From Succinispira mobilis DSM 6222 (lineage in GTDB: Bacteria; Bacillota; Negativicutes; Acidaminococcales; Succinispiraceae): DNA of 64,000 nt. Of this stretch, positions 21,966-56,945 are shown in pieces. The stretch lies in NCBI RefSeq assembly GCF_000384135.1, contig NZ_KB913028.1, forward strand, positions 1,639,351-1,703,350, in the 5' to 3' direction. The notes below the pieces were generated by a model, which saw nothing but the letters and a program-made list of their open reading frames with translations, searched no databases and was not told where the DNA came from. The first letter of the stretch is position 1. Each line of letters starts with the position of its first letter. A program made the translations under genes and the position numbers.

Positions 21966-22661
21966 TTATTTATCTGGGGGCTGAATTTTTCTAGCCCAAT
22001 AAACCACTGGGGTGTCTGTAATACTGGTAACAATGAAAATTATATAGCTTGTATAGATAATATCTACTAATACTGCTGTTTCATAAACTCCATAAAAAGC
22101 TGCTATAGTAAATAAAACCGTATTTAAAAGTTGTGAAATTAAAGTAGAAGCATTATTTCTAAACCACAAAAATTTATTTTTACACCCATACCTATCAGTT
22201 GTTTTTTGCCAAACTTTATGATAAAGCCATACATCAAATCTTTGCACCACAGCGTATACCAACAATCCCGCAAACATCACTCGGGGAGTATTAGAAAATA
22301 CCGCCTGCATATGCGGAAATATTTGGTCATTTTCACTAGGCAAATAGTTTAGCCAGATTTGACTGACTACAATAAACATTGCCGAGACTATTATCCCAAT
22401 ATTCACCGCTTCATTAGCTTTTTTCTTACCTTGTACTTCACTTAAAATATCAGTAACTATAAAAGTTGAGGCAAACAAAATATTTCCTAGGGTTTGTTCC
22501 ATTCCATAAGCTTTTATCAAAATCAATACCTCGATATTCGCTGCAATAGTTGCAAATACCGTCCAACATAATAAGCCTTTACTGCCAAACAGCTTATAAA
22601 ACACCAGTACCGCGCTGTATACAACCAGTAAGTTAATAATCAATAATACTTCATTACTCAC
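21966..22661 (-). CDS. yhhQ: Queuosine precursor transporter, YhhQ (VUT) family
   Basis: The 231-residue integral membrane protein has six or seven hydrophobic helices. Family landmarks are FIVTDILSEVQGKKKANEAV and the C-terminal SQLLNTVLFTIAAFYG. YhhQ proteins import queuosine precursors such as preQ0, preQ1 or queuine. The gene overlaps the upstream radical SAM gene by eight bases, so the two are cotranscribed and translationally coupled. A preQ1-like leader upstream supports the substrate class. Confidence 0.88.
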   Translation of the reverse strand: MSNEVLLIINLLVVYSAVLVFYKLFGSKGLLCWTVFATIAANIEVLILIKAYGMEQTLGNILFASTFIVTDILSEVQGKKKANEAVNIGIIVSAMFIVVSQIWLNYLPSENDQIFPHMQAVFSNTPRVMFAGLLVYAVVQRFDVWLYHKVWQKTTDRYGCKNKFLWFRNNASTLISQLLNTVLFTIAAFYGVYETAVLVDIIYTSYIIFIVTSITDTPVVYWARKIQPPDK

Positions 22662-23388
22662 TAGCTAATACCTCCCCTACCCCAAAATCAGTATTATCTA
22701 GCAAAATGTCTATTTTGGGGTTATTTTTATAGCGCGGATAAATTTCCGCAATAAATTTAGCTCTTAATTCATAATCAGGTCTAAGAGCTGTTGTATTCAT
22801 TCGAAAAACATTAACACAAACCCGCTCAAAATGCAATAAGGCACATTCTATATCATTTAAAATGCTCTGTATACTTTGACCCTTAATTCCGACTAAGAGG
22901 CAACATTCTTCAAAATAATTACTTATTTGTTGGGGCGAACTATCGCCTAGTCCTTTTAATAAAACATTTTCTCGAAAATTAATATCAAAAGTTTCTATCC
23001 CAATTTTCATTTTTAAATTTATACCACTACTTTTAAACTCAGCCTTTAATTTTGCTATCTGCTGATGATAAGCATAATGCGCTTCACAATGCAATTGTTT
23101 AATTTTTTTATTTTGGCAAATTGTTTTTATTAAATCCATTGTCGCTTGGTCTAATTCAAAAATACTACCTGAATTTACAATTTCTAGCACGCCAAATTCA
23201 CCTGTAACTAAGTCCAAGGCTTCTTTGTTAAGTTCGAAGTTAGCCAGCAAATCCCCACTACTGTCTAAATGATAATCACAAAAAGCACATTTTTTCCAAA
23301 AACATCCTCGCCCCCGTAGTAATACTATTTCCCGCGGGTTTTTGTCTTTAATTACTGAATAGCGTTGTAAGTTTTTATTTTTTTCCAT
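22654..23388 (-). CDS. Radical SAM protein of queuosine salvage (QueL-like by context)
   Basis: The 244-residue protein has an iron-sulfur motif RGCFWKKCAFCDYH with spacing C29-x4-C34-x2-C37, one residue longer than the canonical C-x3-C-x2-C. Downstream KIGIETFD and KGQSIQSILNDIE fit the radical SAM barrel. It is coupled to a YhhQ transporter and preceded by a preQ1-like riboswitch. A radical SAM queuine lyase (QueL) that recovers preQ1 from queuine is known in Clostridioides difficile salvage, and this gene may do the same. Function is therefore inferred from context rather than direct sequence identity. Confidence 0.65.
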   Translation of the reverse strand: MEKNKNLQRYSVIKDKNPREIVLLRGRGCFWKKCAFCDYHLDSSGDLLANFELNKEALDLVTGEFGVLEIVNSGSIFELDQATMDLIKTICQNKKIKQLHCEAHYAYHQQIAKLKAEFKSSGINLKMKIGIETFDINFRENVLLKGLGDSSPQQISNYFEECCLLVGIKGQSIQSILNDIECALLHFERVCVNVFRMNTTALRPDYELRAKFIAEIYPRYKNNPKIDILLDNTDFGVGEVLASE

Positions 23389-23507: not shown

Positions 23508-25004
23508 TTATTTTCCAACAAATTTATATATGCTATAAGTACCTTTCCCGTCTTCTTTAGCCTTGTATAAAGCTTGATCAGCTAAACTTAATAGTTCTTT
23601 TAAGTCTCTAGAGTGTTCAGGATAAATAGCTATGCCAATACTAGCGGAATAAACTATTCCTTTTCTCCGCCCCCTTAAATTAGCATTTATATCTTTCAGT
23701 AAAACTAATAGTTCTGCCTTTGGTAAGTCGTGCAGATACAATAAAAATTCATCACCACCAAATCTACCTATCAAAACATCTTGTTTATGAAAAAAATTAC
23801 GTATTTTTTTATAAAATAAATTTATTATCAAATCCCCATAGTTATGGCCCAAGGAGTCATTGATTAATTTTAAATTATCCATGTCAATAAAGAATAAATA
23901 TGATTGGGTTTTTGTGTTAACTATTTTTTCTTGTACTTTACTTAAAAATATATCCCTTCTTAAAGCTCCTGTCTGTTTATCAATCATTCCCCCTACTGAA
24001 TATTTCAAAAGTTTATCAATATTTTCTTGACTGTCATTATTACAAATTATCTTTTTGCTTTTTATAAGCATCGAGTCTACACAACAAGTATTTTTATATA
24101 TTTTTTTATTTAGTAGCTTCATGATTTTTTTTGTTATCCAAACAAATATACTAATTTTCAAAGCAAACAACATTAATAATGCCAATAAATAGTTATTTAA
24201 ATTAACCCTACTAAGCAGCAACCAATTTGTATTTTCTATCCAACTATAGACATTCCAGTAAAACACACCTTTAGCCTTTGAATATGATAAGAACGGAATT
24301 ATTTCGCCATTATTATAACGTTTTTCAAATTCATCTTGTGAATATCCAATTATTTTTTCGCCATGCTTTTTAGCATTACTATTCAAATACTCATCTTTAT
24401 AGCTATGTGCAACTATTTTGCGATTTTCCTGAATTATTAACGAATAGCTTTCATCTTCTTGATAATACGCCCTTAATATGTTCTGAATATTTTCAAATGG
24501 CAAAACAAAGTACAGCAGTTCTTCCTGCCCCTGCTTTTCTCCTAATTTATTCCACATTGCATAAACATAACGATTACTATCTGCGTTCCAACTAACTTCA
24601 GTAATACCCCAATTTCTACTATTACCTAAGGTAATTTTTCCTACATGCAAAAAATCATTGTAAAAAATTTCTTTATTGTTATTTTGCCCATCTAATATCC
24701 CTATATCAATTATATGAAATTTATCTTTATAAATTCCTGTCCAAGCACGCACTCTTTCTGTGGTTTTATCGATCTGATTTTTTTCATGATCAATAGTTAG
24801 TGCTTCCAGCAATTTCTGATATTCTTTTAGTTCTCTGACTACTGCAAAGTTAATAAATTTATTATCTGCCCATAGTTTAGCATTCATTCGTTTGTATACA
24901 TATACACTTGAAAAAATAATATCTAACAAAGTCAAAATTATCAGCAAATATTTTATATGTTTTTTAACTTTTTCCGTTATATCTTTACCGATAATAACTA
25001 TCAC
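23508..25004 (-). CDS. Membrane-bound diguanylate cyclase (GGDEF)
   Basis: This enzyme makes cyclic di-GMP from two GTP. The protein has up to 498 residues: an N-terminal helix (about 17-37), a periplasmic cache-like sensor (about 40-270), a second helix (about 275-295) and a GGDEF domain (about 340-495). The active site RFGGDEF is intact, with FFIDMDNLKLINDSLGHNYGD upstream. The inhibitory I-site RxxD is replaced by HKQD, so product inhibition is probably lost. The annotated GTG overlaps its GAGG site, so the true start may be a little downstream. The gene is headed by a c-di-GMP riboswitch and terminator and lies downstream of the exopolysaccharide genes. Confidence 0.9.
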   Translation of the reverse strand: MIVIIGKDITEKVKKHIKYLLIILTLLDIIFSSVYVYKRMNAKLWADNKFINFAVVRELKEYQKLLEALTIDHEKNQIDKTTERVRAWTGIYKDKFHIIDIGILDGQNNNKEIFYNDFLHVGKITLGNSRNWGITEVSWNADSNRYVYAMWNKLGEKQGQEELLYFVLPFENIQNILRAYYQEDESYSLIIQENRKIVAHSYKDEYLNSNAKKHGEKIIGYSQDEFEKRYNNGEIIPFLSYSKAKGVFYWNVYSWIENTNWLLLSRVNLNNYLLALLMLFALKISIFVWITKKIMKLLNKKIYKNTCCVDSMLIKSKKIICNNDSQENIDKLLKYSVGGMIDKQTGALRRDIFLSKVQEKIVNTKTQSYLFFIDMDNLKLINDSLGHNYGDLIINLFYKKIRNFFHKQDVLIGRFGGDEFLLYLHDLPKAELLVLLKDINANLRGRRKGIVYSASIGIAIYPEHSRDLKELLSLADQALYKAKEDGKGTYSIYKFVGK

Positions 25005-25027
25005 CTCTTAATTCGCCAATTAAATTA

Positions 25028-25071
25028 AATAAAATGACAGCCGTTGTTAATCTACAACTGGCTGTCATTTT
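25028..25071 (-). terminator. Terminator overlapping the 3' part of the c-di-GMP aptamer
   Basis: On the minus strand AAAATGACAGCCaGTTGT pairs with ACAACGGCTGTCATTTT, then a T-rich tail. The 5' arm uses bases that also close the aptamer, so aptamer folding and terminator folding are mutually exclusive. It also ends transcripts coming from the upstream GH18 gene. Confidence 0.85.
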
Positions 25072-25122
25072 AAAGACCCTATAGTTTTGCGTCATAATGT
25101 TTCCACTATTTTGCCAAAATTT
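25055..25122 (-). promoter_or_regulatory. c-di-GMP-I (GEMM-I) riboswitch before the diguanylate cyclase gene
   Basis: Reading on the minus strand: GGCAAA, a 6-bp stem AUAGUG/CAUUAU capped by a GAAA tetraloop, GACGCAAA, then GGGUC paired with GAC-GCC. These are the conserved blocks of GEMM-I in the right order. The base corresponding to G20 of the Vibrio Vc2 aptamer is G. The third stem is shorter than usual and the tetraloop receptor (CUAA) reads CUUU, so the docking contact is degenerate. The overlapping terminator implies control of termination, with ligand binding favouring read-through. Confidence 0.72.
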
Positions 25123-25127
25123 ATTTC

Positions 25128-25157
25128 TCTATAAAATATTCTGCAATAATAATTCAA
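25128..25157 (-). promoter_or_regulatory. Candidate promoter of the diguanylate cyclase transcript
   Basis: TTGAAT, 18 bases, TATAGA on the minus strand, directly upstream of the aptamer. It would give the cyclase its own transcript beginning with the riboswitch. Confidence 0.4.
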
Positions 25158-26183
25158 CTAAAATATCTTCTTTATGTCAACATTGCCACCTAATCGCCAG
25201 ATACTAAAATTAGTATAACCTAGTTTTTTAGCAACACTCATCCAATATTTTAGTGTTTCAGAATCAGCATACCATACCGTTTGCCCTACACCATTTTCAT
25301 CTAAATATTCAAAGTTTAGTGCTTGGCTAGCAGAATTTCGTAATACCTCGGCACTGTGTTTTTTAGCAAGTTTAACCGCTTGTATTTCTGTAATAAATCT
25401 TTTTTTACCATCATTCGACCAGATACAACCACCAGTAGCAAAAGCAATTGTTTTTTCACCTGGTAATTTTTGCATTTTTTTCAAAGTATTATTTATAAAA
25501 TTCTTGTCGGCTTTTGGTCCTGGTTCGCTATGTATGCCATATAAATTATATAACATTACCACGTATTCAGGGCCACTACTAAATCCCAAATGAGTAAATT
25601 TAGTACTAGGTTCTAATACAACTCGTAGCTTTAAATTATTTTTTAGCGCTTGCACGAACAATCTATTTACAAAACGAGTAAAATTATCCCCTAGATCTGC
25701 ATCTTTCCAAATTTGCTCATAATCAAGTTCAATTCCCTGATAACCAAGCTTTTTAGTCATATTAACGATTTCATCAATATGAGCATCCATTTTTCGTTCA
25801 TCAGCAAAAATATTTTTTAAAATCTCTGTATCTTTTAAGCTAATAGAACCATCTGCTTTTTCTCTATCATTAACAATAGTTAAATAGTTTTCCAGTTTTT
25901 TATTACTCTTAACTATCGCTTTAGATTGTTCTTGTAAGTTTTCCGGAACAAACAATTTACCCTGCACATCAAAATAGGCCGCAAAATGACTCAATTTATT
26001 TATTTTATTGTTTACTTTTTTCAGCTCACTTCTACCTGATTCCAAATCCCAATACGCAATCCAAGTAGAAACCTTAGTATCTGCTGTTATAACCATATTT
26101 TCGCCATAATTGCAGCCAGTTAGCATAAAAACTAATGCAACCAAAATACTGAGTCTAGCTATTTTGTTTTTTCTTATATACAA
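25158..26183 (-). CDS. GH18-like lipoprotein of the exopolysaccharide locus
   Basis: The 341-residue protein starts at TTG with GAGGTGG upstream. A lipoprotein signal ends in LTGC (cysteine near residue 24). The body resembles the GH18 barrel of chitinase and spore-cortex glycosidase families: WIAYWDLESG at strand 1 and YQGIELDYEQIW, where the E of DYE matches the catalytic glutamate of the DxxDxDxE motif. The first aspartates of the motif are reduced to ExD. It lies 13 bases after a NodB-fold protein gene. It may cleave or trim the secreted polymer, by analogy with the glycosidase domain of PgaB. Confidence 0.7.
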   Translation of the reverse strand: MYIRKNKIARLSILVALVFMLTGCNYGENMVITADTKVSTWIAYWDLESGRSELKKVNNKINKLSHFAAYFDVQGKLFVPENLQEQSKAIVKSNKKLENYLTIVNDREKADGSISLKDTEILKNIFADERKMDAHIDEIVNMTKKLGYQGIELDYEQIWKDADLGDNFTRFVNRLFVQALKNNLKLRVVLEPSTKFTHLGFSSGPEYVVMLYNLYGIHSEPGPKADKNFINNTLKKMQKLPGEKTIAFATGGCIWSNDGKKRFITEIQAVKLAKKHSAEVLRNSASQALNFEYLDENGVGQTVWYADSETLKYWMSVAKKLGYTNFSIWRLGGNVDIKKIF

Positions 26184-26196
26184 ACTTCCACCTCAT

Positions 26197-28065
26197 CTAC
26201 ATATTTACTACAAACCAACTGATTATCTTGTTCCAAAACTTAGTTGCTGTATATTTTATTTTTTCAAAACCGCTTAAATTACTATCAAATAAAACCGTTT
26301 CTTTTGCTTTTCCTGCGTTTTCAGTTATTTTTAATTTTTCAAACACTCCATCATAAACATCATCCGCCAAATTTCTTTGACTCCAAGCATTAGCACCCCA
26401 AGAACTCTCTAAATATAGATAACCCACATTTAGATTCTTAATTTCTATATTTTTCGCAACTTCTTTATCATCCACATTCAAGCTTAATTTATCATCTTTA
26501 ATATCAATAAACAGTTTACGTTTACCAGCAGCACTAGCACTTAAAGGTGCTTGATATTCTACTGCTCCTTCAGCCACTTTAGCTGGTTTATCCAACATTT
26601 TATCTTTTAATTTTTCCGTGTAAATTGTAGCTTGCTTAGCAGAATCTGCGTATTTTATAAAAGTTTCTAAAGTCCTTTTTTCTGCAGCAGCTCTATCTTC
26701 CGCAACTGAAATTGGCTGTTTACCATCATGTTTATCTAAATTTAGTTTATATATCTCACGCTCTACATTTTTAAGTTTCTCCCTTACATACAGCATATTA
26801 TTTACAATGCTAATAGCTAAATAATTTTCTAGTTTTTCATCAGCTCGTAAATAAATAGTTTGTGCACCTAATTTATTCCCAGTTAACTCAAGATTTATTT
26901 TATTATTGAAAAAATATTTACTATTCTTAAGCTTAATTAAACCATTTGTTAAAGGTTGTGAGGTCACAATGAGTTTTTCTGGTTTGGCTTCAAGAGCTCC
27001 TTTTAAAACTTCCCACTCCGCATGTCTCTCTAAATCGCCTGTTACAAAAGCTAACTTCTGTTCGTTGTCATAATTAAGCCGCATTAACAGATGATTGGTA
27101 TACCAATAAGCTTGCGGTTGTATTCTGGTTAAATCATAGACGCTACTATTGCGCTTGTTTAAAGAAAAACCTTCTCTATTGAAGTTCATTTTAAATAGCT
27201 TTTTAATCCAATACTCGTTTATTAAACTCACTTGATCATTGTTGCCAAAACTTCCCGTGTTAGAGTGCATTAAAATGTACATATCGGGAACAAAACCTAG
27301 CGAATCAGTATAAATAGCCTGCATAGCTTGATAGTCATAAGCTATACGTTCTCGCATTTTTTCATAGCTTTCTTTAGGTACCCCATCAGCATCTCTAATA
27401 TAATCCATTAAATAATGATTATATTTTCTAGCCAAATAAGGTGCTAGCATAGAATGTTTTAATGAACTCAATTCACCTAAATAATTATTGTATCTATCAA
27501 ACACATTAATAAACGCTAAGCGATGCCCATTGCTACCGATTTCCCAATAAGTACTTTTTTGCAAAGCTAATAATTCCTTAGGTTTTAAAAATTTCGGATC
27601 TGGTTTTGCAAACTTCTCAGAATATGTCAAAATTGTTGCTTTGAAATTCAAATCCGCTAAAATTTTTTCTGCAAAAATCGCTGTATCTCGACGCCCATCT
27701 TCAAAAATTAGGAATACTGATTTTTCTGGCAAGAGTTTCCCAGAATTATAGTACTCTTCAATATCTTTTTGGGTTATTGTCACATAGCCATCATTTTTAA
27801 GTGCCTGCAGTTGTTCTTGCAACCGCTCTACTGAAATTAAAGTCTGATCACCACTACGATCTACTCCGAAATAAGCCAGCGCTATAAATCCCCGATCTTC
27901 GCCAACCTTGCCACTCCCATGTTTAGCATCTTGATATTCTTGCCATGTCGTAAGATTTAAGGCAGCAACTACAGCTACAATAGCCAAGAAAATTATTTGA
28001 AATATTACGCGTATTTTTTTATTGCGATTTTTTTGTTTTGAAAACTGCTCATTTGCTAAGCTCAT
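26197..28065 (-). CDS. Membrane-anchored NodB-fold protein (PgaB-like), probably with altered active site
   Basis: The 622-residue protein has one N-terminal anchor helix (about 20-42). A polysaccharide-deacetylase-like domain follows (about 60-370): SVFLIFEDGRRDT in place of TFDDG, and GSNGHRLAF in place of the GSHxxxH metal site. One metal aspartate is kept, but the catalytic aspartate is Glu and the first histidine is Asn. A linker rich in Lys/Glu (about 430-510) leads to a C-terminal beta-sandwich-like region (about 515-600) of the LamG/concanavalin kind. Its position between synthase and GH18 genes suggests polymer binding or modification rather than classical deacetylation. Confidence 0.65.
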   Translation of the reverse strand: MSLANEQFSKQKNRNKKIRVIFQIIFLAIVAVVAALNLTTWQEYQDAKHGSGKVGEDRGFIALAYFGVDRSGDQTLISVERLQEQLQALKNDGYVTITQKDIEEYYNSGKLLPEKSVFLIFEDGRRDTAIFAEKILADLNFKATILTYSEKFAKPDPKFLKPKELLALQKSTYWEIGSNGHRLAFINVFDRYNNYLGELSSLKHSMLAPYLARKYNHYLMDYIRDADGVPKESYEKMRERIAYDYQAMQAIYTDSLGFVPDMYILMHSNTGSFGNNDQVSLINEYWIKKLFKMNFNREGFSLNKRNSSVYDLTRIQPQAYWYTNHLLMRLNYDNEQKLAFVTGDLERHAEWEVLKGALEAKPEKLIVTSQPLTNGLIKLKNSKYFFNNKINLELTGNKLGAQTIYLRADEKLENYLAISIVNNMLYVREKLKNVEREIYKLNLDKHDGKQPISVAEDRAAAEKRTLETFIKYADSAKQATIYTEKLKDKMLDKPAKVAEGAVEYQAPLSASAAGKRKLFIDIKDDKLSLNVDDKEVAKNIEIKNLNVGYLYLESSWGANAWSQRNLADDVYDGVFEKLKITENAGKAKETVLFDSNLSGFEKIKYTATKFWNKIISWFVVNM

Positions 28066-28079
28066 ATCTCATACCCTCT

Positions 28080-29912
28080 TTACTTTCCGCGTTTTTTTTT
28101 CATGCTGGCTTCAATATCCGCAGGTGTTAAGCGTGTACCCCAAGTGTTTTTCCAAAAAGTAAACCAAGCAATTGGCATTTGCCACAGCAAAACAGCTTCG
28201 TAATAAGCAACAAACCATAATCCATAAACCCAAGTTGTGCTTTTTTTCAACAGTAATTGAGCCATACTCATTAATAAAGCCATCAAAAAAATTCCTGTAA
28301 CAAAAGTAACTGGAAAAACTCTATGCATGAGCGGTATGTAAATTAAATTATACAGAACAATAAAAGGTGCAAATATTGGTACCAACACCCCCATATAGAA
28401 GGACAAAGCCATAAACGGCTCTTTTTTCCACATAAAAGAAGCAGCAATCAAAGATTCTCGCAACCAAGAACGTTTCCAGCGCATTTGTTGCTTTAAAAAA
28501 ACAGAATAGGTGTTGGGAACAATAGTACTACAAATTGCTGTGTCTTGGTAAGTTGTGCGATGTTCACGCAAAATAAAATTCGTCATACTTCGATCATCGC
28601 CAAAAGTTGCTCGTTCGCCAAAAAATTTCTGTTCTAGCCAAGGATCAAGGTATTTAAGAACCAAATCTTTTCTATAACAAGCTAGTGGACCTGAAAGACA
28701 AGTAACAGCATCAAAATAACTCTCTGCCGCTTTCATTATTCTAAAAGAAATATAATAGCGAACTGCCTGCATTTTAGTTAAAGCATTCGTATAGGTATTG
28801 GCTACATCTGTTCTACCAGATACTCCACCCATATCTGCATCTTTAAATGGTTGAACTATATTTCTTATCGCATAAGGATCTAGAAAACTATCAGAATCCA
28901 CAAAAACTAATAAATCATGCTTAGCCAATAAAGCGCCCCGTCCCATGGCTTCTCTTTTACCAGCATTTTGTTCTTGTCTGATATAACTAACGCGATTTTC
29001 AATATCATAAAGTTTCTCTCGTTCCTTCAGCTCTTCGATTACTGCGCTTATCTTTTCATAAGAGCCATCTATTGAGCAGTCATCTACCACGATAACTTCA
29101 AGTTTTTCCAAGGGATAGTCTTGATTTATACAGCTAACAATGGTTCTTTCAATCCAATCCACTTCGTTAAAACAAGGAATTATGATGCTTACTCCTGGTG
29201 TAAATTCTTTGTCAATTGGTACTGGTCGATAAAACACAGCAAACAAATATCTTGTAAGTAAAAATGTTGCTGCAATTATGCTATATGTGTACAAAGTTTT
29301 ATTAAATTTGAAATAAAGCACACTTTCGGCACGCATTAACATAATACACAAGGTAGCAATGAACAATGCCAAGGCCGCTACCCCTAATAAATATCTATTT
29401 TTCTTTTTATTAGCGTACTGAGCCAAGGACTGCGTAAACTCCAAACCTACTAAAGTTTTCCCATCTTCACTTTTAGCACTTCTTATAACTTTTGCTAAAA
29501 TATCAACTTGCATTTCATAACCTTCTGGCATACTTCCTGGGGTTATTTCAAATTTCAAATTAATATCAGTAGCTATATCTAGTGCGGCAGCTAATTCCTC
29601 ACTAGTTTCCAATAATATTCCTGTAGTAGATATATCTATAGCTCTGGTTATGTCTAGATGCTTATTACCAACAAGATAATACTCCACCTTAACTGGATAA
29701 TTAACTAAATAGCGTCGCCCCAAATTTTCTTTACCAATCATTTCTTCAAATGTTTCTTCAGCGCTTTTCCCAGGAACCTTTATTAATCGCCGATCGAAAT
29801 TTTTACGGTATCCAGCTTTATCTGGCACTCTTGACAAAACCCGTCGATCTTTTTTAGATACCACCAAAATATCTTCGTTGTTTTTTAATTGTTCTTGTAG
29901 TAATTTATCCAT
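28080..29912 (-). CDS. PilZ-linked family 2 glycosyltransferase, exopolysaccharide synthase
   Basis: The 610-residue processive synthase resembles PgaC, HasA and cellulose synthase cores. An N-terminal cytoplasmic PilZ-like domain (about 62-165) contains D93-ISTTG98, the second PilZ motif; the first motif (RxxxR) is only partly kept (GRRYLVNYPV). Two helices (about 172-225) precede the GT2 domain with VVDDCS (D277/D278), DSDS (D339/D341), the catalytic FGDD (D439/D440) and QQMRW (475-479). At least four more helices form the export channel. The substrate is a nucleotide sugar, probably UDP-GlcNAc given the deacetylase and GH18 neighbours. Confidence 0.85.
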   Translation of the reverse strand: MDKLLQEQLKNNEDILVVSKKDRRVLSRVPDKAGYRKNFDRRLIKVPGKSAEETFEEMIGKENLGRRYLVNYPVKVEYYLVGNKHLDITRAIDISTTGILLETSEELAAALDIATDINLKFEITPGSMPEGYEMQVDILAKVIRSAKSEDGKTLVGLEFTQSLAQYANKKKNRYLLGVAALALFIATLCIMLMRAESVLYFKFNKTLYTYSIIAATFLLTRYLFAVFYRPVPIDKEFTPGVSIIIPCFNEVDWIERTIVSCINQDYPLEKLEVIVVDDCSIDGSYEKISAVIEELKEREKLYDIENRVSYIRQEQNAGKREAMGRGALLAKHDLLVFVDSDSFLDPYAIRNIVQPFKDADMGGVSGRTDVANTYTNALTKMQAVRYYISFRIMKAAESYFDAVTCLSGPLACYRKDLVLKYLDPWLEQKFFGERATFGDDRSMTNFILREHRTTYQDTAICSTIVPNTYSVFLKQQMRWKRSWLRESLIAASFMWKKEPFMALSFYMGVLVPIFAPFIVLYNLIYIPLMHRVFPVTFVTGIFLMALLMSMAQLLLKKSTTWVYGLWFVAYYEAVLLWQMPIAWFTFWKNTWGTRLTPADIEASMKKKRGK

Positions 29913-29939
29913 AAAATAAACCTGCCATTCACAAGACTT

Positions 29940-29961
29940 GCTTATAAATTACTTTATAAGC
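29940..29961. repeat. Intergenic hairpin inside the exopolysaccharide operon
   Basis: GCTTATAAA-TTAC-TTTATAAGC is a perfect 9-bp inverted repeat between the deacetylase and synthase genes, without a T run. It could be an RNA-processing or stability element that sets the ratio of the two proteins. Confidence 0.4.
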
Positions 29962-29986
29962 AGCTTTTAATTTTTTAGTTTACTCA

Positions 29987-32623
29987 TCATCTGTTCACCG
30001 GAATTGATTTTTTAATATCGACCGGTACATAATTATCATTCAAGTAATCTGATAATTTACCTACTTTAAACTTAGTCCGATCGTTTGCTGCCTTTCCTTC
30101 ATTAGCAGTTAACAATATATCAAGTGCTGCTGCTGTATAAGCGCATACATCTGACATATGGAAAATAAGAACAGCTCCTTTTTGGATGTTACCTTCCGGA
30201 GTATAGATTACTTCCTTAAATCTATTTACCAATTGACCTGCATTTTCGGCCTTATAGTCATACATATTCCCAGAACCACAAATAACATTAGTATAGCTAG
30301 TTTCAAATAAAGCCTCAAAACCAATGCGGCTGATTGCTAAAGTTGGTGGTCTAAAAAATCTTGTTAATACAGGTTTACCATCTATAACTATGTCTCCAGT
30401 CAAAGACCTTAATTTTATGTAGGCATCTGTGTAGTCTTTTAAATATTCTTCTTTAGTTGAGGTTCGCACTTGTTTTTTTGTAAGTGGATCCCGTACAACC
30501 ATTGCTTTGTGTTTGTCTGAATGACTGGCAATATCGTGACCTTCTATTGCAATACTACGTAATAAGTTTGGATTAAATAAGACATTATTTGTTAAAACAA
30601 AAAATGTCGCTTTAACTTTGTGCTTTCTTAGTACATACAATAATTTATTTATCGAGGCGTCTGTACCCCAATCATCAAATGTTAAAAAAATTACATTTTC
30701 CTGAGTATTTACATAGCCAGTGGTATCAAAACGTCTCGCATCCATCTTCGAAAAACCTAACATTCGATCATCTGGGGTTATATCGCGATTTCCAATATAA
30801 CGTTTACTCACTTCTGCTAGAAAATCTTCTTTTTCAATTACTAAGTTATTGGAATCAGAACGCAAATTTTCTGGCACTTTAGTAATTTCTACTGGAAAGC
30901 TATATTGCGCCTGCTTGTTCGCCAAAATTGAGCCTACCGTTTTTAATTTATAGCTTGAATTATTAAATTTATTTATCTTAGGATTATCAAAAGAATAATT
31001 ATAAGCTATATTATCTACTTTTAATATTTTTATTTTTTCTACTAAATCTGGAATAATATTTTTTTCATTATAAAAATTTATCCGAAAATATAAAATATCT
31101 CCCTTGGCAAGAGCCAGCATCGAAGGTTTGAACACTTCTGCAATAATATCATCTGCCCGCTTATAATTTTGATGTTTAATTTGCATTAAATTTAAAGATT
31201 GTCCAATTATTCTACAATTCAATCTAGCTATTGCTATTTTTGTGTTCTCCGAAATCTTCCCCCATGGTTGCTTAATTAAGTTTGTTTCCAAAGCAAACTT
31301 ATCTTTTAACATTTTTTTAGTTCTAATTATAATTTCTTGCACTTGCTCTACACTTGCGTCATCTTTCGGTCTAATAGCTAAACCAATTTCATGCCCTGCT
31401 CTAATTATTCTTTTAACATTTTCCGGTTGCCTTAACATTTCTACTTCTGTAACAAAAAAAGTAGCTTTAATATCTAATGTTTGTAATTTATTCAAAACAA
31501 TTTCTAAACTACTAGCATCACTAATTTCTCCAAAAGTAAAAGCCAATGCTGGTTCAACCGTTAAAATATTCTTTAGTTCTTCTTGTTTTAGTTCCCCAGC
31601 ATATGCCTTTTTAGTATTTATTAAGCTAGTAATTGTATTTTGTAAAAAAACAATCACTCTATCTAGTTGTTCTTTGAACAAAAAGTTTCTTTCAATATTA
31701 GTTGCCTTTACCTGTCTATTTGCGACTTTTTGTGGTATTTCGCTCAAATATGCGGTTTTATAATTAGCTTTTTTCAAAGCTATTAATAATTTTTCAACTG
31801 CATCACTCGTTGCTTTATCTAAAACTACGTCTTCCTTTATAATTTGCTTTAATCCCGGCTGTTTGTCTATAGCCGGCATAGCCTCTGTTTTAACTGGCTC
31901 TTTTTTTACTATTTCCTCTGTCAATTTTAGTTTTAATGATATGACACTTCCTGGCTTTATCGTTTTAACAAAATTATCAGCCCCAGACGGAGAATTAAGC
32001 TGTTTGACATTTAAATACACATCGCTTTTTACAGCACTATTTAAGCCACATGCTTTAGCGACCTTTAATATTTCGTCTGTATAAATTGTGTCATTGCATT
32101 TCAAAAAAGTAGCTGTTTTATCAGTATTTACACTAATTATTTTTTGTGTCTTTGCAAAATCCTTTACTAACTCTTCTTGAGTTAGTTTCTCCATTGCTCT
32201 TCTGCCAAAAAGTGTATAGTTTTCAATTTTTTGACCACTATTTTTTATGTTTACCAAAATACTAGGATTTTCAGCACTTTGCATTCCATCTACAAAAAAT
32301 GTAGCCTTTGCTTCGTGTTTTTTTAATATGTCTAAAATTCTCTGGATAGTTGTGCTATCCGTCAAACCATCAAAGGTAATTATCACTTGACGTTCTTTAT
32401 TATCTTGTGTTGTAAAAATCTCGGCCTTACTAACATTAGTTTTAAGCTTTTCCAAAATTTGCTTTTGTTCTATTTCTATCGAATAAGCACTTTGAAGATC
32501 ATTTATATTATTTGAATCGCCCGCAGTTTTTGTCGTAAAAAAGTCCTTCGTAAAAAAACCAATCAAAGCAATTACACAGACTATGAAAATTGCAATAACC
32601 CATTTTTTATTTTTTTCTTGCAT
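29987..32623 (-). CDS. Polysaccharide deacetylase with three NodB-type domains
   Basis: This is a protein of about 878 residues, starting at ATG 32623 behind AGGTGA; a GTG at 32632 is in frame. It has an N-terminal membrane anchor (about 10-28) and three NodB-like segments. The first (VIITFDGLTDSTTIQRILDI, about 65-300) and second (LAFTFGEISDASS, about 350-550) have lost the metal triad. The third (about 642-857) is intact: LTFDDWGTD, H-S-D-K-H metal histidines, RFFRPP and LIFHMSD. It would remove acetyl groups from a secreted N-acetylhexosamine polymer in the periplasm. The degenerate copies may bind polymer. It lies between the barrel and synthase genes. Confidence 0.8.
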   Translation of the reverse strand: MQEKNKKWVIAIFIVCVIALIGFFTKDFFTTKTAGDSNNINDLQSAYSIEIEQKQILEKLKTNVSKAEIFTTQDNKERQVIITFDGLTDSTTIQRILDILKKHEAKATFFVDGMQSAENPSILVNIKNSGQKIENYTLFGRRAMEKLTQEELVKDFAKTQKIISVNTDKTATFLKCNDTIYTDEILKVAKACGLNSAVKSDVYLNVKQLNSPSGADNFVKTIKPGSVISLKLKLTEEIVKKEPVKTEAMPAIDKQPGLKQIIKEDVVLDKATSDAVEKLLIALKKANYKTAYLSEIPQKVANRQVKATNIERNFLFKEQLDRVIVFLQNTITSLINTKKAYAGELKQEELKNILTVEPALAFTFGEISDASSLEIVLNKLQTLDIKATFFVTEVEMLRQPENVKRIIRAGHEIGLAIRPKDDASVEQVQEIIIRTKKMLKDKFALETNLIKQPWGKISENTKIAIARLNCRIIGQSLNLMQIKHQNYKRADDIIAEVFKPSMLALAKGDILYFRINFYNEKNIIPDLVEKIKILKVDNIAYNYSFDNPKINKFNNSSYKLKTVGSILANKQAQYSFPVEITKVPENLRSDSNNLVIEKEDFLAEVSKRYIGNRDITPDDRMLGFSKMDARRFDTTGYVNTQENVIFLTFDDWGTDASINKLLYVLRKHKVKATFFVLTNNVLFNPNLLRSIAIEGHDIASHSDKHKAMVVRDPLTKKQVRTSTKEEYLKDYTDAYIKLRSLTGDIVIDGKPVLTRFFRPPTLAISRIGFEALFETSYTNVICGSGNMYDYKAENAGQLVNRFKEVIYTPEGNIQKGAVLIFHMSDVCAYTAAALDILLTANEGKAANDRTKFKVGKLSDYLNDNYVPVDIKKSIPVNR

Positions 32624-32643
32624 GTTTTTCACCTACTTATTTA

Positions 32644-34044
32644 TTAAAAGTAATATGTTACACTACCCCACAAAGTTTTTCCTCGCAACCCAGTAACTTT
32701 ATCTTCTAAATTAAAATACTCCAATCCTAGAACAACATTTTCTACTAAAGTATAATGTGTCCCCACTGCGTACCCTTTGAACCCTTGCATTCTTGTACCA
32801 ATACCATTCATACCATGCGCAATATATGTGCCTTGTGCCTGATTATAATATTTAGCAAAAATATCGTAAGTTTTGGGACGAAAAGTTTTTAAATCACCAT
32901 ACTTAATCCCCAAAACATAACCATCATCATCACCACGAACATCTTGCCAATTACTTTTTAAATACATTGCTCCCACACTAAAATTACTAAAATAATAATT
33001 ATACCCTAAACTGGTAATCGTATTTTTTCTATCTGTTTCCTCTGCTCGATAAGAATATATCCCTAGTTCTAAATCATAATCTAAATCTGAATATTTTGCC
33101 GTACTTACAAAAGTATCTTTACTAGAATTAGTTTCACCATAAGCCAAAGCATATTTAACCTGCTGGCCAAACTCAAACTTCAATCCATCAAAACGACTAT
33201 CATATACATTGCCCTCGGCCATTAAATAACCAAAAGCTCCAGCTGTTACTCCTGTTTTACCTAATTTACCCTTAACATAGAACCGATTAAACTCTTCAAC
33301 ATCATCGTAATCGTGAATATCAGTTTTTAATTCAAACATACCATAAGCCCGCCAATCTTTGGCAAGATAGGCATCAATACCAATACGTGTTCTTAACCCA
33401 GCTTGGTCATCATTTAGTCTGCCTATTCCTCTGTTGCCACTAGAATGAAACCTTATTTCACCACCAACATTAAACTTATTCTGACCACTATTATTGACTT
33501 TGCCAATATTGTTCAACTCTTGCAGTAACTTATTATACGTTTCTAAGTCAATATCTTTATTCTCTGTTTTGACACTACTTTTAATAATTGCTTTGTTTTG
33601 CGTTCCCAAAATCAAATTTTGAATTTGTTCCGTTTCATATATAAAGCTTTTTTTTGCAGCTTCTGGCAATAAATCTTTATCATTATTTATCTTATTTCTA
33701 AATTCTGTCATTTTATAATTGACATCTTCTTTTTCTGCTCCTGGCAATAAGGGTAAACTTTTAGAAATCAAACTTACAATTGCTTTATCCAGTTCTCCTT
33801 TAAATTTTTCAATATTATCTGTTGGTAAGTTTTGGACTTGCTCTTTTAATTTTGTACTCTCCATTTTAAAAGTTTCTTTTTCATCAAGCGCAATTGGTGC
33901 AGTACTGTCTTCGCTTTTTTGTCGAATTTCTTGTTGATATTTCAATAAAGAATTATCATAAGCATAGGTTGTCGGTGGCTGAAAAATAACCATAATCTCC
34001 AATAATACTGTAATAAATGCGGCAACTGAAACTCCTTGTTTCAT
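32644..34044 (-). CDS. Outer-membrane beta-barrel protein, probable exopolysaccharide exporter
   Basis: The 466-residue protein has a signal peptide (cleavage near TTYAYD) and a helical periplasmic region of about 170 residues rich in Lys, Glu and Gln. The C-terminal barrel (about 195-466) starts FNVGGEIRFHSSG and shows alternating aromatic beta-strands ending in the C-terminal Phe of GSVTYYF, as expected for outer-membrane insertion. No family name is certain. As first gene of a locus with deacetylase, synthase and glycosidase, it occupies the place of PgaA or AlgE. Expression is governed by a c-di-GMP riboswitch in its leader. The start is ATG with GAGGAGG upstream. Confidence 0.75.
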   Translation of the reverse strand: MKQGVSVAAFITVLLEIMVIFQPPTTYAYDNSLLKYQQEIRQKSEDSTAPIALDEKETFKMESTKLKEQVQNLPTDNIEKFKGELDKAIVSLISKSLPLLPGAEKEDVNYKMTEFRNKINNDKDLLPEAAKKSFIYETEQIQNLILGTQNKAIIKSSVKTENKDIDLETYNKLLQELNNIGKVNNSGQNKFNVGGEIRFHSSGNRGIGRLNDDQAGLRTRIGIDAYLAKDWRAYGMFELKTDIHDYDDVEEFNRFYVKGKLGKTGVTAGAFGYLMAEGNVYDSRFDGLKFEFGQQVKYALAYGETNSSKDTFVSTAKYSDLDYDLELGIYSYRAEETDRKNTITSLGYNYYFSNFSVGAMYLKSNWQDVRGDDDGYVLGIKYGDLKTFRPKTYDIFAKYYNQAQGTYIAHGMNGIGTRMQGFKGYAVGTHYTLVENVVLGLEYFNLEDKVTGLRGKTLWGSVTYYF

Positions 34045-34085
34045 TGCAAATACCTCCTCTTGGGATAAAGTTTATAAAAGTGTAT

Positions 34086-34141
34086 AAAAAAACCTGGTCA
34101 TATAAAAAATAATTGTATATATTATTTCTTATGCAACCAGG
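34086..34141 (-). terminator. Riboswitch terminator before the barrel gene
   Basis: On the minus strand CCTGGTTGCATAAGAAATAA and what follows pairs with a downstream arm ending GACCAGG, giving a stem of about 20 bp with G-U pairs, then seven T residues. The 5' arm overlaps the aptamer's 3' end. Confidence 0.85.
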
Positions 34142-34207
34142 CAGTCATAGATAAAATCTTTAGACCCACGGCTTTGCGTCCTTATTTTTCAATAAGTTTG
34201 CGTTTTA
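34133..34207 (-). promoter_or_regulatory. c-di-GMP-I (GEMM-I) riboswitch controlling the exopolysaccharide operon
   Basis: Minus-strand blocks in order: CGCAAAC, stem UUAUU/AAUAA with GAAA tetraloop, GGACGCAAAGCC, GGGUCUAA (tetraloop receptor), a small hairpin AGAU/AUCU, and GACUGCC-UGGUUGC. This is a near-consensus GEMM-I aptamer. Counting back from the GCAAAC block, the base equal to G20 of Vc2 is C instead of G. The terminator arm uses the aptamer 3' strand, so ligand binding should allow read-through (ON switch). The leader of about 230 bases (34045-34277) is entirely taken up by aptamer, terminator and ribosome site. Confidence 0.85.
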
Positions 34208-34261
34208 GATTGAACTGAGTAGTTTAACTAGTTTTCTAAAAACCCGCTATATTTTTATTCT

Positions 34262-34286
34262 CATTAAGTATATTTATATACTAATG
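34262..34286. repeat. Imperfect palindrome near the exopolysaccharide operon start site
   Basis: CATTAGTATA-TAAA-TATACT(T)AATG on the minus strand is a near-perfect 10-bp inverted repeat overlapping the predicted start of transcription. It is a possible operator. Confidence 0.35.
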
Positions 34287-34312
34287 ATACAAAAATTATC
34301 TACAATTAGCAA
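34284..34312 (-). promoter_or_regulatory. Candidate promoter of the exopolysaccharide operon
   Basis: TTGCTA, 17 bases, TATCAT on the minus strand, about 75 bases before the aptamer. Other AT-rich hexamers nearby make this a moderate call. Confidence 0.45.
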
Positions 34313-56798: not shown

Positions 56799-56945
56799 TA
56801 AAGGTGCCTAATTAGGCTTAAATCAAGGGAAGTTCGGTGTAAATCCGACACGGTCACGCCACTGTAAACACAATTTTGTGTAAGTCAGATCGCTGCCTTT
56901 AATTTTAGTGCTTTGCCTGCGAGTGACGGGAAAGCAGCTTGATTT
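56799..56945 (+). promoter_or_regulatory. Cobalamin (B12) riboswitch
   Basis: Conserved blocks appear in order: AAAGGTGCC, GGGAA, GGTGTAAATCC, ACGGTCACGCCACTGTAA (the B12 box neighbourhood), AAGTCAGAT and CGCTGCCTTT closing the first stem. This is an unmistakable cobalamin aptamer. It lies 24 bases before an intrinsic terminator, so high B12 would stop transcription into the ABC importer genes. Confidence 0.95.

Follow-up and report, generated by a model that had tools for sequence, protein, structure and literature searches.

A review of exopolysaccharides controlled by cyclic di-GMP (c-di-GMP) treats cellulose, alginate, Pel and poly-beta-1,6-N-acetylglucosamine (PNAG) (PMC8461298), and the names Negativicutes, Veillonella and Selenomonas were all absent from a systematic operon classification (PMC7112194) in a term search. 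Described systems that resemble the locus reported here are PgaABCD of Escherichia coli, in which synthase, deacetylase, glycosidase and outer-membrane barrel functions for PNAG are combined under c-di-GMP control; hyaluronan synthase (HAS), which in HasABC has a UDP-sugar dehydrogenase as partner; and the NodC/NodB pathway, in which a family 2 glycosyltransferase (GT2) and a NodB deacetylase serve chito-oligosaccharide synthesis. The locus lies at positions 23508-34312 of a 64,000-nucleotide stretch of the Succinispira mobilis DSM 6222 genome (NZ_KB913028.1, 1,639,351 to 1,703,350), called the window below. With moderate confidence in the statement as a whole, we read it as a synthase-dependent system, as yet without a name, that makes an N-acetylglucosamine (GlcNAc) polymer, partly de-N-acetylated and probably with N-acetylglucosaminuronic acid, and that is gated by c-di-GMP riboswitches. 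The literature searched, with most subscription journals outside it, contained no description of a barrel-NodB-GT2-PgaB-like-GH18 architecture, of a c-di-GMP-riboswitch NodB operon or of feedback through a riboswitched cyclase, which bears out the original prediction, made from the sequence alone, that no named system is known to be built in this way.

All six minus-strand open reading frames (ORFs) of that prediction were confirmed in place, and their families were assigned by Pfam and NCBIfam, with three Polysacc_deac_1 stretches, Glycos_transf_2 together with PilZ, Glyco_hydro_18 and GGDEF (Table 1). The first five genes are likely on a single transcript, since the gaps separating them are only 11, 74, 14 and 13 bp long. 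The arrangement is not due to chance, because the gene order is kept in about 50 other genomes. That the locus encodes a secreted polysaccharide system can be stated with great confidence, and its description as a c-di-GMP-governed exopolysaccharide system was supported. It had also been called a counterpart of PgaABC; this holds for broad function, while specific kinship to a Pga counterpart was found for the PgaB-like protein only. No PgaD-like ORF of at least 80 amino acids is present in the locus, as had been predicted.

The synthase is of the HAS/NodC type. Over the catalytic and transmembrane block, its identity is 32.5% to Xenopus HAS1, 28-29% to NodC, 25.6% to PgaC and 20% to BcsA. In an alignment with 8SMM, the HAS motifs GDDR, QxxRW (QQxRW) and WGT(R/S) appear as GDDR, QQMRW and a C-terminal WGTR, whereas PgaC has TED. 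The best-scoring named synthase family in NCBIfam was NodC (168.9 bits), and PgaC reached 118.8 bits against a cut-off of 422.3. A tree of GT2 sequences had long branches and did not separate HAS from NodC ancestry, so that this comparison is based on the motifs and identities. A GlcNAc backbone is a likely assignment. The window system differs from HasABC by its additional PilZ domain, deacetylase, GH18 protein and export barrel, and from NodC/NodB by a membrane-tethered multi-NodB scaffold, the GH18 protein, the barrel and c-di-GMP control.

The triple NodB protein is membrane-anchored, and only its domain 3 (approximately residues 640-845) keeps the catalytic and metal-binding residues, in the motifs FLTFDDWG, HSDKH and RFFRPP that correspond to the DD, H(S/T)xxH and RxP of family CE4. 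These motifs were found neither in domains 1 and 2 nor in the PgaB-like protein. A motif survey gave the same picture for nearly all relatives, with FDDW, H(S/T)xxH and FRPP kept only in the last NodB domain. Selenomonadaceae have two genes instead of the one for the triple NodB protein, a degenerate single-NodB gene ahead of the GT2 gene and a two-domain gene behind the GH18 gene. On these motifs, partial de-N-acetylation of the polymer is predicted rather firmly.

The PgaB-like protein, which the original prediction had as its second NodB-fold protein, consists of an N-terminal transmembrane helix, a NodB domain and a C-terminal beta-sandwich. Its PgaB ancestry is recognisable (PRK14582, E 2e-11), and the best solved match of the NodB domain is E. 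coli PgaB (3VUS; TM 0.76 by target). The sandwich matches CBM66 (4AZZ) and stands in place of the hydrolase domain of PgaB. In the whole family (T/S)NGYR (NGHR in the window) is found instead of the metal-binding His motif and FEDGR instead of FDDG, and for this reason the protein is not a standard CE4 deacetylase. Its pocket is nevertheless strongly constrained, with an invariant polar set of E122, D123, R125, D127, N216, H217, D221, R224, H267 and N269; this conserved, non-canonical pocket suggests that the NodB fold has some activity or a role in binding. The GH18 lipoprotein has the lipobox LTGC and an above-cut-off match to PF00704. Its catalytic motif IELDYE provides the last D and E of the GH18 motif D-x-D-x-E, both with a conservation of at least 98% across 52 sequences, and its matches in the PDB are GH18 proteins of the spore YaaH/YdhD type. 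The earlier view that PgaB is split over three genes was not upheld: the parts are one active CE4 domain, three degenerate NodB domains and one GH18 protein.

The AlphaFold2 model of the barrel (mean pLDDT 80) has an N-terminal helical region followed by 16 predicted strands. Its best solved fold match was OmpM1 of Veillonella parvula (8BYM; E 2.4e-18, TM 0.76 by target), a porin from the same class, Negativicutes. No relation to PgaA was detectable in a profile comparison with hhalign (probability 1.7%). Of the two structural likenesses to Pga that had been proposed for checking, that of the NodB fold to PgaB was thus found, in the PgaB-like protein, and that of the barrel to PgaA was not. 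Unlike OmpM1, the window barrel has a helical N-terminus (TPR in an orthologue) rather than an S-layer-type attachment domain, and its gene sits inside an exopolysaccharide operon. The orthologue, from a Sporomusa locus, is 1133 amino acids long with N-terminal TPR repeats. This layout of TPR and barrel is that of PgaA-type exporters and supports an export role, though the kind of barrel differs. The barrel is presumed to be the polymer exporter, and a porin specific to the lineage seems to have been taken up for this role, with a TPR domain in Sporomusa as in PgaA. In a Veillonellaceae metagenome-assembled genome (MAG; locus L150, 13829-18079), a second barrel and a two-domain NodB gene follow the cassette as a pair, as if the export module had been duplicated in part.

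Strong relatives of the PgaB-like protein were found in about 74 of 381 Negativicutes genomes, and the order barrel-NodB-GT2-PgaB-like-GH18 was kept in about 50 Negativicutes loci wherever the contig allowed. The expected conservation of gene order was confirmed in this way, but not the proposed restriction to Negativicutes. In a collection with a single genome for each species, relatives of the marker protein were encoded on at least 274 genome stretches. The best 80 of these 274 include Pelosinus, Sporomusa, Selenomonas, Mitsuokella, Pectinatus, Megasphaera, Clostridium, Anaerocolumna, Tissierella, Thermotalea and Acetobacterium as well as Lachnospiraceae. Clostridial loci have a four-gene core, NodB-GT2-PgaB-like-GH18, without the barrel; this core is carried by Clostridium, Lachnospiraceae, Tissierella, Acetobacterium and also Paenibacillus. 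Judged from these gene contents, the system is not Negativicutes-specific and the barrel is a diderm addition; we infer the direction from monoderm to diderm. The presence of the same synthesis core in single- and double-membrane relatives offers a natural experiment on an envelope gaining a polysaccharide exporter. The carriers include rumen, gut and environmental Negativicutes and Clostridia, and the system may provide the matrix polymer of bacteria for which we know of none.

The Paenibacillus cassette, from P. cellulositrophicus (NZ_CP045296.1; locus L086, 9123-16789), consists of NodB, dehydrogenase, PilZ-GT2, PgaB-like and GH18 genes, and its PilZ-GT2 protein is 55% identical to the window synthase. 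It lies on an 897-kb plasmid, so the cassette may travel. The dehydrogenase ORF of this locus has no listed coding sequence and its C-terminus looks frameshifted. Cassettes were also seen in MAGs titled Acholeplasmataceae or Chloroflexi (L101, L104, L146, L153). One of these, L104, carries an outer-membrane barrel, and the titles are therefore probably wrong or the bins mixed.

A gene for a nucleotide-sugar dehydrogenase is part of the operon in 43 of 44 barrel-bearing loci, in diderms mostly between the barrel and NodB genes, and in 11 of the 27 barrel-less loci with enough upstream sequence. The best NCBIfam match of the in-operon enzyme is TviB, a UDP-GlcNAc 6-dehydrogenase (PRK15182), with 442 bits, below the equivalog cut-off of 592; the cut-off of the nucleotide-sugar dehydrogenase subfamily was exceeded (394 versus 190). 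Against the UDP-glucose dehydrogenase TuaD only 148 bits were obtained. The enzyme thus does not qualify as a HasB-type partner and differs from that of HasABC in being of the UDP-GlcNAc rather than the UDP-glucose type. Of 253 Negativicutes genomes with a completeness of at least 90%, 57 have the cassette; a close relative of the dehydrogenase (E<1e-100) was present in 54 of these 57 and in 14 of the 196 others (Fisher p 5e-38, a value that overstates independence because the genomes are unequally related). This usual presence of a TviB-type dehydrogenase favours a uronic-acid-containing polymer rather than PNAG, although for uronic acid itself we put the chances only slightly above even on the gene content.

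The single TviB-type dehydrogenase of the S. mobilis genome is an orphan (L168:7021-10504; G000:C1, ~1142520-1146003). Its neighbours are the gene of a TonB-dependent receptor and two separate consecutive ORFs, Cache and then EAL, which together resemble a split c-di-GMP phosphodiesterase. Tree and context gave no demonstration that the gene was relocated out of the operon: the orphan groups, poorly separated, with lipopolysaccharide/capsule-cluster and clostridial enzymes. They show no more than the availability of a dehydrogenase in trans. Among clostridial genomes lacking the in-operon copy, a relative of 59-62% identity occurs elsewhere in four Lachnospiraceae/Tissierella genomes, and the others tested have only a 37-39% relative.

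Both c-di-GMP-I (GEMM-I) aptamers of the locus score above the Rfam gathering score of 35 for RF01051. The one upstream of the barrel had been predicted, and the one in front of the cyclase gene had been missed. Simple pattern matching missed real sites (for example in L045), and Rfam calls were used where available. No c-di-GMP-I riboswitch beyond these two was found in a search of the whole genome (2.09 Mb), which has 27 GGDEF matches and two PilZ domains. Class II riboswitches were absent from the 64-kb window, the rest of the genome not being searched for this class. In both leaders the 5' arm of the hairpin is the 3' strand of the aptamer, with an overlap of 14 nt in riboswitch 1 and 23 nt in riboswitch 2. 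The best terminator-like hairpin likewise started within the aptamer in 18 of 18 class I leaders (17 loci, including an Acetobacterium) and in the two class II leaders examined. Because the terminator overlaps the aptamer, ligand binding should prevent termination, and both riboswitches are predicted to be ON switches. We regard c-di-GMP ON control of the system as highly probable from these leaders. A c-di-GMP-II riboswitch replaces class I upstream of the barrel in L053 (16199-16285), and in Clostridium carboxidivorans one lies ahead of the NodB gene (L154, 4349-4432), which suggests that c-di-GMP control of the cassette arose more than once.

The cyclase is a dCache-GGDEF protein with an intact RFGGDEF active site (Pfam, 98 bits), and the canonical RxxD inhibition site was not found in it. 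Its start codon is uncertain, as the GTG overlaps the ribosome-binding-site-like AAGAGGTG. Only 32 nt lie between the GH18 gene and aptamer 2, and the cyclase gene is therefore probably reached by read-through. Transcripts passing both switches would mean serial gating and probable positive feedback in this genome. Having two riboswitches in one locus, one of them before a diguanylate cyclase gene, sets the locus apart from the usual c-di-GMP-I riboswitch, with which it shares the terminator-overlap platform, and makes a simple, testable positive-feedback circuit. In Lucifera (L091), a cyclase gene lies directly downstream of the GH18 gene (133 bp) without a riboswitch.

In the mechanism that we propose, at high c-di-GMP riboswitch 1 would prevent termination upstream of the operon, and riboswitch 2 would gate transcription into the cyclase gene, the two switches in series forming a latch with positive feedback, and the synthase is probably also controlled allosterically through PilZ. 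The HAS/NodC-like GT2 would polymerise and extrude a GlcNAc-containing chain from UDP-GlcNAc, with UDP-GlcNAcA as a presumed second substrate made by the TviB-type dehydrogenase, whose gene most relatives have in the operon and this genome has in trans. The membrane-anchored NodB proteins would hold the chain in the periplasm, where domain 3 of the triple NodB protein would de-N-acetylate it and the degenerate NodB domains and the PgaB-like/CBM66-like protein would bind or guide it. The GH18 lipoprotein would cut or clear chains, and the OmpM-type 16-strand barrel would export the polymer through the outer membrane, a role that would explain why monoderm versions lack the barrel. A more specific and rather doubtful version, which would make this a new exopolysaccharide class in bacteria, is a hyaluronan-like chain in which N-acetylglucosaminuronic acid replaces glucuronic acid; partial loss of N-acetyl groups would render it zwitterionic, and catalytically altered NodB domains would handle it, in a system of monoderm origin with a recruited OmpM-type porin and the serial double-riboswitch latch. 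The NodB-fold lactam cyclase SwsB (PMC12444981) offers an analogy by which an altered NodB domain might even condense amine and carboxylate.

We infer the identity and linkage of the polymer, and other assignments were weighed. A divergent PNAG system, as in the original prediction, would have PgaC, PgaB and PgaA functions carried by divergent proteins. The set of synthase, deacetylase, glycosidase and barrel, the c-di-GMP control and the PgaB N-terminal fold and sequence match all fit, but the synthase scores far below the PgaC cut-off and below its NodC score, has GDDR and WGTR like HAS and not TED, and acts beside a barrel unrelated to PgaA. GH18 is present where PgaB has its own hydrolase domain, the single CE4 site is in a different protein, most operons include a dehydrogenase and there are monoderm homologues. 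The system works like Pga in broad function and fails the features of Pga membership that were tested (PgaA, PgaC, PgaD and an active PgaB with hydrolase), making PNAG improbable. A locus for peptidoglycan modification of cell-wall or spore/cortex type would agree with the PdaB/PdaA-type NodB and the YaaH/YdhD-type GH18 matches. The former are generic and below cut-off, a processive HAS-like GT2 shares the operon with an outer-membrane barrel, and c-di-GMP riboswitches are present, which leaves this explanation very improbable indeed.

A chitin- or chitosan-like beta-1,4-GlcNAc homopolymer, with the neighbouring dehydrogenase serving another glycan, is unlikely but the likeliest of these alternatives. 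NodC is the best named family for the synthase, and NodB-type deacetylation with GH18 is chitin chemistry. Several observations count against our own reading, and the first two of them favour the homopolymer: the window operon has no dehydrogenase gene, the gene is missing in 16 of the 27 barrel-less loci, and the orphan enzyme is nearest to those of lipopolysaccharide/capsule clusters (68-70%). Uronic acid may hence be optional, or the dehydrogenase may serve another glycan. As to control, the synthase PilZ domain has DxSxxG and RR/R67 conserved without a clean RxxxR at the usual spacing, so that the predicted PilZ control and c-di-GMP binding are plausible by motif but incompletely matched. 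Riboswitches were below threshold in the scanned Selenomonadaceae, other Acidaminococcaceae and most clostridial loci, so riboswitch control is not universal. The U-tract of riboswitch 2 is weak, a promoter inside the GH18 gene could conceivably serve the cyclase, and this genome is the only one in which a riboswitch of its own was seen for the cyclase. What speaks for a uronic-acid-containing polymer over the homopolymer is the dehydrogenase in nearly all barrel-bearing operons and its co-occurrence with the cassette, together with an identity about 4 points higher to HAS than to NodC, although the two are not separated in the tree.

Table 1. Features of the S. mobilis locus, in window coordinates
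Feature	Position	Strand	Evidence
Possible promoter of sigma-70 type, TTGCTA-17-TATCAT, upstream of riboswitch 1	34284-34312	minus	Consensus scan, placement only
Riboswitch 1, c-di-GMP-I aptamer, upstream of barrel gene	34129-34212	minus	RF01051, 73.1 bits, E 2e-12
Riboswitch 1 expression platform, terminator hairpin and U7	34086-34142	minus	Folding
Outer-membrane beta-barrel gene, 466 aa	32644-34044	minus	ORF list
Triple NodB/CE4 gene, 881 aa	29987-32632	minus	Pfam PF01522, three stretches; motif survey
PilZ-GT2 synthase gene, 610 aa	28080-29912	minus	Pfam, NCBIfam, alignments
PgaB-like gene, 622 aa	26197-28065	minus	PgaB match E 2e-11; fold matches
GH18 lipoprotein gene, 341 aa	25158-26183	minus	Pfam PF00704 E 5e-9
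Riboswitch 2, c-di-GMP-I aptamer, between GH18 and cyclase genes	25050-25125	minus	RF01051, 57.4 bits, E 1.3e-8
Riboswitch 2 expression platform, terminator-like hairpin (dG -23.5), weak U-tract	25020-25072	minus	Folding
Diguanylate cyclase gene (dCache-GGDEF), 498 aa	23508-25004	minus	ORF list, Pfam

Consensus scans for promoters and terminators gave matches no commoner than in shuffled sequences and were set aside; the terminators are argued from folding and aptamer overlap instead. Elsewhere in the window, a gene for a VUT/YhhQ-type transporter overlaps that of a short radical-SAM protein (21966-23388), possibly forming a pair for salvage of a queuosine precursor, and an AdoCbl (cobalamin) riboswitch of 65.8 bits is located on the plus strand at 56810-56940.

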